Origin: Halorubrum californiense DSM 19288
GTDB taxonomy: Archaea; Halobacteriota; Halobacteria; Halobacteriales; Haloferacaceae
Length of the DNA: 56,220 nucleotides
Assembly: GCF_000336875.1 (NCBI RefSeq)
Contig: NZ_AOJK01000009.1
Location: 74,731 to 130,950, forward strand
Direction: 5' to 3'
This document shows, piece after piece, positions 1,826 to 54,344 of this stretch (the first letter of the stretch is position 1; every line of letters starts with the position of its first letter). Below the pieces are notes generated by a model. It ran no database searches and had not been told where the DNA came from. It saw nothing but the letters and a program-made list of their open reading frames with translations. A program made the position numbers and the translations under genes.

Positions 1826-1872
1826 GCGGGAGCGGCTTCGCCCGACTGCGGCTCTTTTCGAAGTGACTTCGC

Positions 1873-1995
1873 GGTGGCGCGCCGCCGAGCGGCCGCCACC
1901 GGCGGCCGCGAGGTGTCCGCGAGGGAGCGGTGAGCGCCCGGCGGGCGCGAACCGCGAGGCTGGGGAGGAACGAGGTGCCGTGCGGCGCAGTGTCG
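1873..1995 (-). repeat. Partial copy (A) of the dispersed structured repeat
   Basis: This intergenic stretch matches the second half of the larger repeat at 6928-7194, read on the minus strand. It shares the 'cctccccagcctcgcggttcgcg' type core and two hairpins. One pairs 1889-1897 with 1901-1909 (9 bp, 3-nt loop). The other is a nested stem, 1927-1931 with 1951-1955 enclosing 1934-1939 with 1943-1948. The first half of the repeat is missing. It lies between two convergent genes. Confidence 0.7.
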
Positions 1996-6927: not shown

Positions 6928-7194
6928 GAGAACACCGCCAAAGCCCCAGCCGCGCTCGACTCCCACAGCTCGCTGCGCTCCTCAGTCGTTCGCTCCGCTC
7001 ACTCCTTGCGGTGCTTGCGTCGCTGGGGTTCGCCGACCGCGGCTGCCCCTTTGAGTCCCGCCCCGCACCGCAACCGCAGCCTCACGCCTCCCCAACCTCG
7101 CGGTTCGCGCTCTCCGAGCGCTCACCGCGTCCCTCGCGCGTGCGACATCGCGCCCTGCGGGCGCTCGTCGGCACGCGCCGCCGCAGTTCGGTCA
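6928..7194 (+). repeat. Dispersed structured repeat, copy B
   Basis: About 267 bp between the ABC ATPase gene and mutL, closely related to 23449-23707 and, inverted, to 53971-54236. The order is: 'aacaccgccaaagccccagc', a long inverted repeat (6948-6954 with 7038-7044), 'gcccctttgagtcc', a nested stem (7099-7104 with 7124-7129 around 7107-7112 with 7116-7121), and a terminal stem (7136-7143 with 7171-7178) enclosing a hairpin (7150-7155 with 7159-7164). No coding frame is kept between copies. Confidence 0.8.
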
Positions 7195-7278: not shown

Positions 7279-9639
7279 ATGGAGCCGCCAGACATCGAGC
7301 GGTTGGACGAGCGGACCGTCCAGCGGATCGCGGCCGGCGAGGTCGTCGAGCGCCCCGCGAGCGTCGTGAAGGAGTTGGTCGAGAACAGCCTCGACGCGGG
7401 CGCGAGCCGCGTGGCGGTGTCGGTCGAGTCCGGCGGCACCGAGGGGATCCGCGTCCGCGACGACGGCGTGGGCATCCCCGCGGACCAGCTGGAGGCGGCC
7501 GTCGCGGAGCACGCCACCTCGAAGATCGGCGACATCGAGGACCTCGACCGCGGCGTCGCCACGCTCGGGTTCCGCGGCGAGGCGCTGTACACCGTCGGCG
7601 CCGTCTCCCGGCTCACCGTCCGCTCGCGCCCCCCGGACGCCGAGGCCGGCGCGGAGATCACCGTCGCGGGCGGCGACGTGGGCGAGGTCCGCCCCGCGGG
7701 CTGCCCGGCGGGCACGACCGTCGAGGTCGACGACCTCTTCTACAACACGCCCGCCCGCGAGAAGTTCCTCAAGCGGACCGCCACGGAGTTCGACCACGTG
7801 AACACGGTCTTGACCGGCTACGCGCTGGCGAACCCCGACGTCGCCGTCTCGCTGGAACACGACGGCCGCGAGACGTTCGCGACCGAGGGGAACGGCGACC
7901 TCCGCTCGGCCGTCCTCGCGGTCTACGGCCGCGAGGTGGCCGAGTCGATGATCGACGTCGACTGGACGCCCGAAAGAAAGGAAGACGCGGACGGATCGGC
8001 CGACGACGACGCCCCCGTCAAGCGGGTCACGGGGCTGGTCTCGCACCCGGAGACGGCGCGCTCGACCCGCGACTACCTCTCGACGTACGTCAACGGCCGG
8101 TACGTCACCGCGAGCGCGCTCCGCGAGGCGACCCTCGACGCCTACGGCGGCCAGTTGGCCCCCGACCGCTACCCCTTCGCGGTCCTCTTCGTCGAGGTCC
8201 CGGCCGGCGACGTCGACGTGAACGTCCACCCGCGCAAGCTGGAGGTGCGCTTCGACGAGGAGCCGGCGGTCCGGGAGGCGGTCGAGACCGCCGTCGAGGA
8301 GGCCTTGCTCGACCACGGCCTGATCCGCTCGACGGCGCCCCGCGGCCAGTCGGCCCCCGACCAGACCCCGGTCGACCCCGAGACGCCCGACACCGAGGCC
8401 GTCGGCGGCGCGAACGCGGACCACGAGCGCGCCGCGCGAGAGGGACGCGGCCGCGCAGCCTCCGGAAACTCGTCGGACGCCGGGGGCGACGCCGGCGCGG
8501 CGCAGACCGACGATGCCGACGACTCCGGGACACCGACCGAACTGGACCCCTCGGACGACGCGGCGTGGGCGGTCGACGGTCTGGACGGCGGGGACGCGGC
8601 CGGGGGCGGATCGGCCGACGACCGGACGGGACGGGGACTCGGCGACGCGGACGGCGACGCCCGCCCCTCGCCGCGGAACTGGCAGGACGGCTCCGGGGAA
8701 CGGGACGGCGATCCCCCGACGGGGGCCGACGACGACCTGAGCGGAGTCGACGACGCCGCGGAGACGCTGGCGGACGCGGTCGACCGCGACGCCGACACCT
8801 CGGACGCCGACATCCCGACGAGCGCACCCTCGGCCGAGGACGGACCGACTCGGGGCGAGGTGTCGGTCGATGGGGACGCGTCGACCGACGTGGACGCGCC
8901 GGCCCCGAGCGAAACGGAGTCCGACGACAACGACGACACGGCGCGGCGGAGTTCCCGAGTGCGCCCCGCGACGCGCCAACGAACCCTCGACGGCGACGGG
9001 ACGGAGAGCGAGCGCGAGTTCGACTCGCTGCCCTCGCTGCGGCTGCTCGGACAGCTCCACGAGACGTACGTCGTCGCCGAGGCGCCCGACGGGCTCGTGC
9101 TGATCGACCAACACGCGGCCGACGAGCGCGTGAACTACGAGCGGCTGAAGGCGGTCTTCGCGGACGGCGCGGACGCGCAGGCGCTTGCGGAGCCGGTCCG
9201 CATCGAGCTGACCGCCCGCGAGGCGGCGCTGTTCGAGGAGTTCGTCGACGACCTGGCCGAAATCGGGTTCCGGGCCGAGCGCGCGGGCGACCGCGAGGTC
9301 GCGGTGACGGCGGTCCCGGCCGTCTTCGACGCCGCGCTCGATCCGGACCTCCTCCGCGACGTGCTCTCCGCGCTGGTCGACGACGCCGCCGCGGGCGACG
9401 AGCCGGTCGCGGACGTCGTCGACGAGCTGCTCGCCGACCTCGCCTGCTACCCCTCAGTCACGGGGAACACGTCGCTGACCGAGGGGCGGGTCGTCGACCT
9501 CCTCGACCGCCTCGACGCCTGCGAGAACCCCTACGCCTGTCCGCACGGCCGCCCGGTCGTGATCCGGCTCGACCGCGACGAGATCGGGTCGCGGTTCGAG
9601 CGCGACTACCCCGGACACGGGGGCCGGCGGGCGGAGTGA
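7279..9639 (+). CDS. mutL: DNA mismatch repair protein MutL
   Basis: A 786-residue MutL. The N-terminal GHKL ATPase shows motif I (KELVENSLDAGASRV), motif II (DDGVGI) and motif III (ATLGFRGEAL); the ribosomal S5-like fold ends near residue 345 with DVNVHPRKLEVRF. A long acidic low-complexity linker (about 350-575) precedes the C-terminal dimerisation domain. That domain carries the nicking-endonuclease signature DQHA-x2-E-x4-E at residues 610-621 (DQHAADERVNYE), so it should nick the discontinuous strand in mismatch repair. ATG 7279 fits the family start (EPPDIERLDERTVQRIAAGE); the longer open frame upstream is repeat DNA. No mutS is next to it in this window, although the two are often neighbours in haloarchaea. 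Confidence 0.95.
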   Translation: MEPPDIERLDERTVQRIAAGEVVERPASVVKELVENSLDAGASRVAVSVESGGTEGIRVRDDGVGIPADQLEAAVAEHATSKIGDIEDLDRGVATLGFRGEALYTVGAVSRLTVRSRPPDAEAGAEITVAGGDVGEVRPAGCPAGTTVEVDDLFYNTPAREKFLKRTATEFDHVNTVLTGYALANPDVAVSLEHDGRETFATEGNGDLRSAVLAVYGREVAESMIDVDWTPERKEDADGSADDDAPVKRVTGLVSHPETARSTRDYLSTYVNGRYVTASALREATLDAYGGQLAPDRYPFAVLFVEVPAGDVDVNVHPRKLEVRFDEEPAVREAVETAVEEALLDHGLIRSTAPRGQSAPDQTPVDPETPDTEAVGGANADHERAAREGRGRAASGNSSDAGGDAGAAQTDDADDSGTPTELDPSDDAAWAVDGLDGGDAAGGGSADDRTGRGLGDADGDARPSPRNWQDGSGERDGDPPTGADDDLSGVDDAAETLADAVDRDADTSDADIPTSAPSAEDGPTRGEVSVDGDASTDVDAPAPSETESDDNDDTARRSSRVRPATRQRTLDGDGTESEREFDSLPSLRLLGQLHETYVVAEAPDGLVLIDQHAADERVNYERLKAVFADGADAQALAEPVRIELTAREAALFEEFVDDLAEIGFRAERAGDREVAVTAVPAVFDAALDPDLLRDVLSALVDDAAAGDEPVADVVDELLADLACYPSVTGNTSLTEGRVVDLLDRLDACENPYACPHGRPVVIRLDRDEIGSRFERDYPGHGGRRAE

Positions 9640-21184: not shown

Positions 21185-21538
21185 TGTCTGTGAGTTGGAA
21201 CGGCACAACCGCAACGTGACCGCGACTCCGCGCGGCGCGGCTACGGATCGCTCGCGGGACGAGCGATCCGACCGGCCGATCCGCGCGAGCGGACCGCCCG
21301 ACCGCGACGCCGGAGGCGTCGGCGCACTGCTACATTCCCAAGCCGCGGGCGAAAGAGCCCCGGCGAGTCGGATCTGCAGCTGTGCTGTTCCCGTGTGAGG
21401 GGTCGCCGTCGGGGTTCTTAAGCGTGTTCTTGTCCCGCGGCGAGGCGGCTCCGTCGGGGGAGCCCGGCCGATCTGTCTGACGGAGCGGACACGGGGATTT
21501 AGGTGGGCCGTCGGTCTGCGGAGGGATGTGACCGACAA
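21185..21538. promoter_or_regulatory. Divergent intergenic region: uS15 leader and NhaC promoter
   Basis: 354 bp without a gene. On the minus strand a TATA-like 'cttaag' (about 21417-21423) would give a uS15 leader of about 200 nt, unusually long for haloarchaea. On the plus strand 'gatttagg' (about 21495-21502) sits about 35 bp before the NhaC ATG. The leader contains the hairpin at 21244-21270 and further GC-rich inverted repeats such as cgacgccggaggcgtcg (about 21304-21320). No ORF or tRNA is seen. Confidence 0.5.
21244..21270 (-). promoter_or_regulatory. 11-bp hairpin in the uS15 leader
   Basis: CGGATCGCTCG (21244-21254) pairs perfectly with CGAGCGATCCG (21260-21270) across a 5-nt loop. 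It lies 60 bp upstream of the uS15 ATG within the presumed leader RNA. Ribosomal-protein leaders often carry protein-binding hairpins for feedback control; that role is inferred here. Confidence 0.5.
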
Positions 21539-23448: not shown

Positions 23449-23707
23449 AACACCGCCAAAGCCCCAGCCGCGAGGACTCGGTGCGCTCGCTGCGCTCCTC
23501 ATTCGTTCGCTCCGCTCACTCACTGCGGTGCTTGCGTCGCGCGCCGTCGTCCTCGCGGCTGCCCCTTTGAGTCCCGCCCCGCACAGCACCGCGACCGCAC
23601 CTCAGACCTCCCCAACCTCGCGGTTCGCGCTCTTCGAGCGCTCACCGCGTCCCTCGCGCGTGCTGACTCGCGGGCCTGCGGCCCGCTCGCAGGCACGCGC
23701 CACCGCG
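23449..23707 (+). repeat. Dispersed structured repeat, copy C
   Basis: About 259 bp between the NhaC operon and the PHP gene, in the same orientation as copy B. Stems: 23466-23477 with 23549-23560 (12 bp, agccgcgaggac / gtcctcgcggct); the nested stem 23619-23624 with 23644-23649 around 23627-23632 with 23636-23641; and the terminal stem 23656-23663 with 23693-23700 enclosing 23670-23676 with 23680-23686. The rest of the gap 23374-23791 holds a T-rich stretch (23393-23406) just after the operon, which may be its terminator, and the PHP promoter. Confidence 0.8.
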
Positions 23708-53970: not shown

Positions 53971-54236
53971 GGCGGTGGCGCGTGCCGGTGAGCGCCGCAT
54001 CGCGGCGCGAACTGCACGCGCGAGGGAGTCGCTGGCCCCGGAGCGAAGCGGAGGGTGCCAGCGACGAGGCTGGGGAGGCGTGAGGCAGCGGTGCTGTGCG
54101 GTCGGGGTAGGACTCAAAGGGGCAGCCGCGAGGGCGACGTAGGCGACGCAAGCACCGCAGGGAGCGAACGGAGTGAGCGACTGCGGAGCGCAGCGAGCGT
54201 ACGTCGCCCTCGCGGCTGGGGCTTTGGTGGTGTTGT
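53971..54236 (-). repeat. Dispersed structured repeat, copy D
   Basis: About 266 bp in the mfnA-halocyanin gap (53920-54344), inverted relative to copies B and C. Stems on the plus strand: terminal stem 53978-53985 with 54014-54021 enclosing 53992-53998 with 54002-54008; second stem 54028-54036 with 54057-54065 (9 bp); and a long perfect 18-bp inverted repeat 54124-54141 with 54200-54217 around a 58-nt loop. Just before it, 'ccttataaatagg' (53955-53967) looks like a TATA box, and the halocyanin promoter lies after it. Confidence 0.8.
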
Positions 54237-54344
54237 CCGTCGATCCGTACGTCACTCCGTATCGCCGAGCGGTCGGCTTCGAATCGACCTCGGCGTCGCG
54301 TTCGGATCAACATATTCACTACGGGTCACCACGAACCGCCCTGT

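Follow-up and report, generated by a model that had tools for sequence, protein, structure and literature searches.

An old, dispersed family of structured intergenic repeats in the class Halobacteria

Introduction

When the hairpins of a short repeat differ from copy to copy and still pair, is the pairing kept by selection on an RNA, by selection on single-stranded DNA, or by mutation alone? The question is raised by four copies (A to D) of a repeat in a stretch of 56,220 nucleotides from Halorubrum californiense DSM 19288 (hereafter the window; contig NZ_AOJK01000009.1, positions 74,731 to 130,950). A sequence-only reading of the window had described the copies as one dispersed family of common layout, placed between genes and after a plus-strand gene, had taken the paired changes in their stems as the mark of selection for structure, and knew of no described function. 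We examined these claims in the window, in the genome that holds it (the own genome) and in collections of haloarchaeal and other genomes.

Layout of the element

Full-length alignment of the window copies gave identities of 85% (B/C), 78% (C/D) and 76% (B/D), with E≤2e-46 for these three and copy A as a partial member, and the hairpin stems quoted earlier are present as stated; together with the genome-wide core counts given below, this bears out the dispersed family with a shared layout. In what follows, the D strand is the plus strand for copies A and D but the minus strand for B and C, and the C strand is its complement. On the D strand, GCGGTGG is followed by hairpin H3 (outer stem GCGCGTGC/GCACGCGC), GAGGGA, hairpin H2, CGAGGYTGGGGAGGYGTGAGG and a G-rich linker, and then by hairpin H1 with GGGACTCAAAGGGGC...GGGGCTTTG and a terminus near GGTGTT (Table 1). 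The H1 core measures about 115-130 nt: one strand carries GGG-N-GGGACTSAAAGGGGC, a freely varying, mostly complementary stem comes next, and a conserved irregular distal arm (2-bp steps, tandem GA) leads to GGGGCTTTS. In copy C this core is a long, irregular hairpin: its stems vary, its internal loop is GGG/GGG, and 2-bp steps form a ladder together with tandem GA. The covariation of this hairpin, the largest of the element and the best evidence presented here, was missed by the sequence-only reading. H3 and H2 are exchangeable hairpins that precede H1 in Halorubrum-like genomes; in some other genera two H1 units separated by about 33 bp make up an inverted doublet.

Table 1. Features in the window, numbered from its first letter.
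Feature	Position	Strand	Remarks
Copy A, partial	about 1871..1992	+	H3, H2 and CTGGGGAGG segment; without H1, no R1 match
Copy B, full	6928..7184	-	H1 at 6931-7060
mutL	7279-9639		MutL domains found; copy B lies upstream of mutL
S15-Halobacteria ribosomal protein leader	21324-21394	-	Rfam RF03143, 72 bits
Copy C, full	23449..23706	- (folding strand)	order H3 - H2 - linker - G-tracts/H1
Copy C, H1 domain	23449..23576	-	R1 model match, E 6e-26
Copy C, three G-tracts	23562..23580	-	GGGG 23577-23580, GGG 23573-23575, GGGG 23562-23565
Copy C, fourth G-tract	23462-23465	-	on the opposite arm of H1
Copy C, H2 hairpin	23619..23649	-	exchangeable cassette
Copy C, H3 hairpin	23656..23700	-	outer stem GCGCGTGC/GCACGCGC, GA/GA flanks, variable inner stem
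Copy D, full	53972..54237	+	opposite orientation; H1 at 54108-54234; TTATAAATA immediately beyond the H3 end

Copy number and distribution

We searched the own genome (3.68 Mb, 83 contigs) with an 18-base core, allowing up to 3 mismatches, and retrieved 95 matches, against 13 for a reversed control; the same core gave 197, 157 and 139 matches in the relatives G135, G100 and G145 (controls 8, 5 and 6). A profile search of the fetched loci yielded 123 distinct copies, 95 of them full. We built a covariance model of H1 (R1, whose E-values are rough) from 44 H1 sequences of the Halorubrum-like set (g1). In the window, copies B, C and D matched the H1 model at E≤8e-23, the next matches being the other strand of copy D (E 0.002) and then chance matches at E≥0.59. 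Scoring 40 of the 219 first-look candidates in the own genome gave at least 45 matches, and in the 3.0-Mb relative G135 all 150 scored candidates (of 8795 at first look) matched the H1 model at E≤4.1e-19; since every one of them did, 150 copies is a lower bound for that genome.

A covariance model, the check proposed in the earlier reading, recovers the family in Halorubrum and other haloarchaea: R1 matched 219 of 292 Halobacteria genomes and 62 of 77 genera (E≤1e-4), in families that include those labelled f1, f2, f3, f4, f6, f7, f8 and f10. This search used stricter filters and scored few candidates per genome, so the lack of a match at E≤1e-4 in 73 of the 292 genomes is no proof of absence. 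In a phylum-wide draw of 148 genomes, 17 had R1 matches, all of the same genus, family or order, and none of the listed "same phylum" genomes outside the order had one (111 matchless genomes were not listed individually). A pattern of the type found in other genera, run against a collection of 84,980 species, returned 81 stretches, all titled Halobacteria, from genera such as Haloarcula, Haloglomus, Halonotius, Haloparvum, Halobaculum, Natrinema and Natronococcus. The repeat is of long standing in the class Halobacteria, where its copies lie dispersed between genes.

No Rfam family matched the element (6 loci, E≤1), and over the whole window Rfam reported the S15 leader only. We found no account of the family in a mostly open-access literature on haloarchaeal repeats, structured RNAs and quadruplexes and on the DNA mini-hairpin (PMC2841640 and PMC13155455, for example). 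The family is apparently undescribed so far, in line with the original remark on its function. The repeats seem to have caused breaks in assemblies, since six contigs of G000 (C10, C23, C26, C32, C33 and C58) end near a core match and N occurs inside copies at L060, L086, L095, L117 and L124.

Covariation of the paired arms

We skipped 16 of the 95 full copies before alignment and worked with two hand-chosen sets of length-filtered copies, A1 (44 of 70) and A2 (44 of 72); arms were counted in 74 of the 95 copies for H1 and in the 86 parsed copies for H3, the other 9 of the 95 not being parsed into H2 and H3. The RNAalifold consensus of H1 (A2, 44 copies) is one long hairpin of 34 pairs, 22 of which change on both sides. 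Its cells were paired in 98.2% of cases, compared with 27.7-43.4% when the structure was slid along the alignment, and it held 212 double-change cells against a shuffled mean of 58, with a covariation score of 0.417 against 0.149; the number of further pair types was not above the shuffles (231 of 500 reached the count). For H3 (A1), 96.9% of cells were paired, compared with at most 55.4% when slid, and double-change cells numbered 67 against 20.

We then compared column pairs with a tree-based null in a purpose-built test (FastTree tree, Fitch counts, G statistic with average-product correction). On A2, 5 of 8001 column pairs were significant, all five within the H1 structure. On A1, 4 of 5886 were significant, one within the structure and three outside it that represent linked H2 alleles, so that 1 of the 17 H3 structure pairs passed. 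When 261 distinct H1 sequences drawn from many genera were compared, 14 pairs out of 6786 were significant; ten of these belong to the 20 consensus pairs, one lies in an adjacent register, and three lie elsewhere and would fit further nested pairs. The basal H1 stem in other genera had 110 distinct 5' arms among 121 arm pairs and matched at 9.51 of 12 positions within copies versus 5.86 between copies; 74 of the 121 stems matched at 10 or more of the 12 positions, versus 0.6% between copies, so not all are perfect. The family therefore shows covariation above phylogenetic background, as is asked of a structured non-coding RNA. The statistics confirm that both arms change in ways that preserve the structure, and so support a constraint on folding.

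Exchange of hairpins and history of the copies

The hairpins do not all bear on this constraint alike. At the site of copy C, a full element stands in the same intergenic place in 19 of 37 parsed genomes (13 of 50 loci unparsed), and at the site of copy B in 13 of 21 (9 of 30 unparsed); these are best or hand-picked loci and do not give a frequency. The remaining parsed genomes carry truncated copies or, at site C, an element-free spacer of 35-117 bp in nine genomes, none of which presents a clean empty site with a target duplication. Between orthologues, H2 or the tip of H3 can be replaced with most else alike (L126/L128, L148/L149, L114/L115). Double changes in H2 and H3 between species are largely cassette exchange, and ectopic gene conversion or template switching can swap a whole hairpin in one step. 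Because of these abrupt swaps and the single significant pair among 17 in H3, paired differences in H2 and H3 are weaker evidence for selection; that argument is carried by H1, where changes occur pair by pair between partners separated by as much as about 120 nt. The view that paired change reflects selection for structure thus stands as a constraint on folding, on the tests of H1 and H3, and is weakened for the H2 and H3 stems on which it had been based, whose double changes are largely cassette swaps.

For the 63 full copies of the own genome, identity to the closest paralogue does not exceed 93.3% and has a median of 86%, so spread has been slow or old.

Several copies hold other sequences. 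Modules made of two perfect hairpins, each with a 3-nt loop and linked by CTGGCAG or a like sequence, are nested inside element loops at L022, L066, L076, L080, L087 and L088, and also at L131, L133, L139 and L161; they look like a smaller repeat family that targets hairpins. At L095, the H2 loop of the copy near 1516-1928 contains a long AT-richer insert, in a stretch with an N. At the copy C site, L126 (G095) and L127 (G135) contain an insertion with ends of the GGCTCTGTTGAAA / TTCAACAAA type whose cargo differs by species, the cargo in G135 including a second, oppositely oriented copy of the element. The AACACC side of the element often has decayed tandem units of about 57 bp, and the intergenic region of L158 (copy B site, G013) has five identical 63-bp tandem units made of the AACACC end and a TATA-like block.

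Folding strand

The D strand is the folding strand (the minus strand for copy C). It folds better than its complement in 75 of 75 copies for H3+H2 and 71 of 73 for H1 with RNA parameters, and in 73 of 75 and 71 of 73 with DNA parameters. Isolated basal-stem mismatches on this strand are G.T rather than A.C at 30:1 in g1 and 33:11 in other genera (63:12 in total, related sequences included). GA stands on both sides of the inner H3 stem in 60 of 84 cases, 2-bp steps with GA/GA between them form a ladder in the distal half of H1, and GCGNAGC occurs 186 times on D versus 10 times on C in 95 copies. GNA accounts for 67 of the 117 triloops and TNC for 13; the 21 tetraloops include neither GNRA nor UNCG.

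At the foot of H1, the bases of the GGG/GGG internal loop are unpaired and nearly the same in every copy (72-73 of 74). Two further G-tracts stand ahead of it, giving four tracts in all with the hairpin as one loop. Of 74 scored genus copies, 64 have three or more G in each of the four, and GGG-N-GGG precedes AAAGGGG in 116 of 136 copies from other genera with both flanks, a set selected in part by a pattern that contains tracts 2 and 3. The four conserved tracts make up a quadruplex motif, and the quadruplex itself is putative.

What kind of nucleic acid folds is less clear-cut. The share of G.T at stem positions is about 2.2-2.5%, versus 6 of 133 in the acceptor stems of 20 tRNAs from the same loci (G.T:A.C 6:0), a small comparison. 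GNA loops closed by G-C are described as extraordinarily stable DNA mini-hairpins, GCGAAGC having a Tm of 78 °C (PMC4686876). Weighing these findings, we judge the folded G-rich strand slightly more likely to be single-stranded DNA than RNA; the G.T excess as such is compatible with RNA at least as well as with DNA.

The element could instead be a multi-copy family of structured non-coding RNAs made from the D strand, by read-through or from promoters of its own, in which the G-tracts and H1 would belong to an RNA fold. The deep covariation, the many conserved unpaired bases and the G.T excess on D, which the tRNA acceptor stems share, speak for this, and a halite metatranscriptome study describes 22 conserved RNAs from between the genes of Halobacteria that have no function assigned, with which the element can be compared by description only (PMC7002113). 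Against it, the g1 copies have no TATA-like block at the distance expected of a promoter for D, the AT-rich block standing only 6-17 nt ahead of the D-strand start; the upstream gene runs in the D sense in only 26 of 50, 35 of 57, 15 of 28 and 41 of 89 cases; and the loops are mostly GNA triloops with no GNRA or UNCG tetraloop among those counted and no Rfam match on the element. We regard an RNA family as possible and, on balance, doubtful.

TATA-like AT-rich blocks flank the element on both sides (27 of 83 and 26 of 91, versus 1 of 83 and 3 of 91 control windows), and no exact duplication could be defined. In g1 a TATA consensus is centred 27 nt before the C-strand start (AACACC), TATA-like in 26 of 91 copies, and hints at transcription of the C strand. 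We rejected a C-strand RNA as the folded product: despite the TATA consensus, C is the poorer folder of the two strands and has mismatches of the wrong kind.

The strand asymmetry also bears on whether any function was selected. Template switching, palindrome correction and gene conversion could by themselves make hairpins perfect, and the whole-hairpin swaps and the nested perfect hairpins with 3-nt loops are what such mutation would leave behind. Symmetric correction would not, however, be expected to produce strand-asymmetric mismatches, loops and GA steps, nor to conserve unpaired G-tracts and core bases across families, and we hold a purely mutational origin to be very unlikely.

Genomic setting

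The intergenic placement noted in the window extends to the own genome, where gene calls, even weak ones, cover none of 84 copies; in further copy sets, with weak gene calls over the element set aside, there was likewise no copy in coding sequence and no class-wide rule of orientation. As had been observed, all four left neighbours of the window copies are plus-strand genes; each has Pfam domains. This is not a genome-wide rule: in the 77 own copies with genes called on both sides, weak calls over an element again set aside, the neighbours in C orientation were ++ 30, -- 16, +- 23 and -+ 8 times. Convergent pairs outnumber divergent ones in g1 (23:8 in the own genome; 13:5, 16:8 and 11:5 in further sets), and the order is reversed in other genera (16:31). 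A role as cis-regulator of neighbouring genes was rejected on this class-wide inconsistency of orientation.

We also looked for a linked protein partner by clustering 1008 locus frames, five clusters of which we inspected, and no dedicated-looking partner recurs. The recurrent frame families near the element (ABC transporters, kinases and dehydrogenases, named by eye) are ordinary large families, and some clusters also unite frames that read through the element. A plasmid or virus origin was discarded, as a Halorubrum-type DNA query matched 6 of 72,556 plasmids and 0 of 50,697 phages, and so was a replication-strand bias, as the 150 G135 copies show no strand clustering.

In two genomes of about 3.7 Mb, with 150 candidates scored per genome, 76 of 76 H1 matches fell on the 3.37-Mb contig of G142 and 42 of 43 on the 2.74-Mb contig of G105. 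The 150 copies of G135 are spaced at a median of 15.8 kb, a little more regularly than chance would place them (CV 0.86, one-sided P 0.035). Nearly exclusive placement on the main replicon in these two genomes, the slightly even spacing, neutrality of orientation and retention at orthologous sites would suit folded DNA that serves the host rather than itself, as a site of chromosome architecture or of repair and recombination (a nucleoid protein, polyploidy, a hotspot of gene conversion). The many genomes without a match, some of them possibly misses, and the frequent truncation or absence of orthologous copies make such a host-beneficial site unlikely in our judgement.

Relation to transposase genes

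By inspection the element has no terminal inverted repeats, its ends GCGGTGG... and ...GGTGTT not being mutually inverted. The genome G255 has no match to PF01797 (Y1_Tnp) or PF07282 and carries 67 H1 matches (E≤1e-8), and G045 has no PF01797 match, two PF07282 matches and 69 H1 matches (E≤1e-8); elsewhere, PF01797 matched four times in G000 and once in G135. As both genomes are rich in copies without PF01797, the element does not need IS200/IS605 genes. We found elements in 5 of 35 tnp loci (111 kb), all among the 15 loci of G135, and four of these (L367, L370, L373, L383), which occur in both orientations, precede a tnpB frame by 43, 108, 394 and 435 bp. This may be chance or a weak association, and none of the 14 tnpB loci of the own genome holds an element.

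A non-autonomous IS200/IS605 derivative (PATE), or a REP moved by a Y1 transposase, would have strand-specific hairpins of this kind, PATEs are known from Haloquadratum (PMC3119063), and the four elements upstream of tnpB could be its traces. The differing distances and orientations of these elements, the own-genome tnpB loci without one and the two copy-rich genomes count against such a derivative, which appears highly improbable. An origin from a known transposon or protein gene, named earlier as what would speak against a structured family, finds no support: none of the 84 own copies lies in a gene, and no fixed IS605-type end was seen in the 35 tnp loci; a looser link to tnpB may exist.

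Discussion

The reading that we favour, tentatively and short of calling it probable, is that of an extragenic element of ancient origin, REPIN/ERIC-like, which is recognised in the form of its folded G-rich strand. The recognised form would be that strand with its quadruplex and GNA mini-hairpins; the element would be non-autonomous, behave in the manner of REPINs or ERICs and be acted on by a host-encoded partner, not necessarily a Y1/RAYT transposase; hairpins would be traded among copies through ectopic gene conversion, and copies no longer able to fold would be lost. The high-potassium cytoplasm of haloarchaea would favour folding into a quadruplex plus GNA mini-hairpins, and their polyploidy would ease ectopic gene conversion. 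We count against this REPIN/ERIC-like reading the lack of recent spread, of a clean empty site with target duplication and of a partner gene among those sought, as well as the H3 result in the tree test, the imperfect basal stems and the C-strand TATA consensus. A more far-reaching picture, of chromosome-wide one-strand DNA folds in which a G-quadruplex surrounds a hairpin composed of tandem sheared GA steps and very stable GNA mini-hairpins, folds thanks to the potassium of the cytoplasm, is read by a dedicated protein of the host, swaps cassettes and is kept throughout Halobacteria, seems rather unlikely as a whole.

A structured element with at least 150 copies in some genomes, class-wide and with neither an Rfam family nor, among those we found, a paper that describes it, amounts to a large gap in haloarchaeal annotation. 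The family also offers ample natural variation with which to tell apart causes of covariation at the RNA level, at the DNA level and in mutation alone, and is useful both for asking if quadruplexes are of consequence where cytoplasmic potassium is molar and in the search for an archaeal counterpart of the REPIN/RAYT system.

Among known haloarchaeal repeats, the PATEs, MITEs and SMRs of Haloquadratum, as set out in PMC3119063, are transposase-free, and SMR-A inserts into palindromes. The present family likewise comes without a transposase, and its small nested hairpin modules recall SMR-A in palindromes; unlike PATEs, MITEs and SMRs, it shows no fixed IS605-type end in the tnp loci inspected, no terminal inverted repeats and no recent own-genome copies. 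Bacterial REPINs, which go with RAYT transposases, are portrayed in PMC3116915 as extragenic and many-copy, with tandem clusters and compensatory hairpin changes. The haloarchaeal element shares all of these traits, its many copies being able to form hairpins, and in some genera it also forms inverted doublets, the unit of a REPIN (19 with both flanking genes called; none in the g1 sets). It differs from REPINs and RAYTs in its far longer core, its exchangeable extra hairpins, its G-tract motif and the absence of a Y1_Tnp match in G045 and G255, and because the defining RAYT partner is absent from these two copy-rich genomes we do not file it as a REPIN. ERIC elements of enterobacteria are imperfect palindromes of about 127 bp that lie between genes and carry internal insertions at set places. 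By description, not by sequence, our family resembles them as a long imperfect palindrome, intergenic and with internal insertions, and it differs from them in being archaeal and class-wide.
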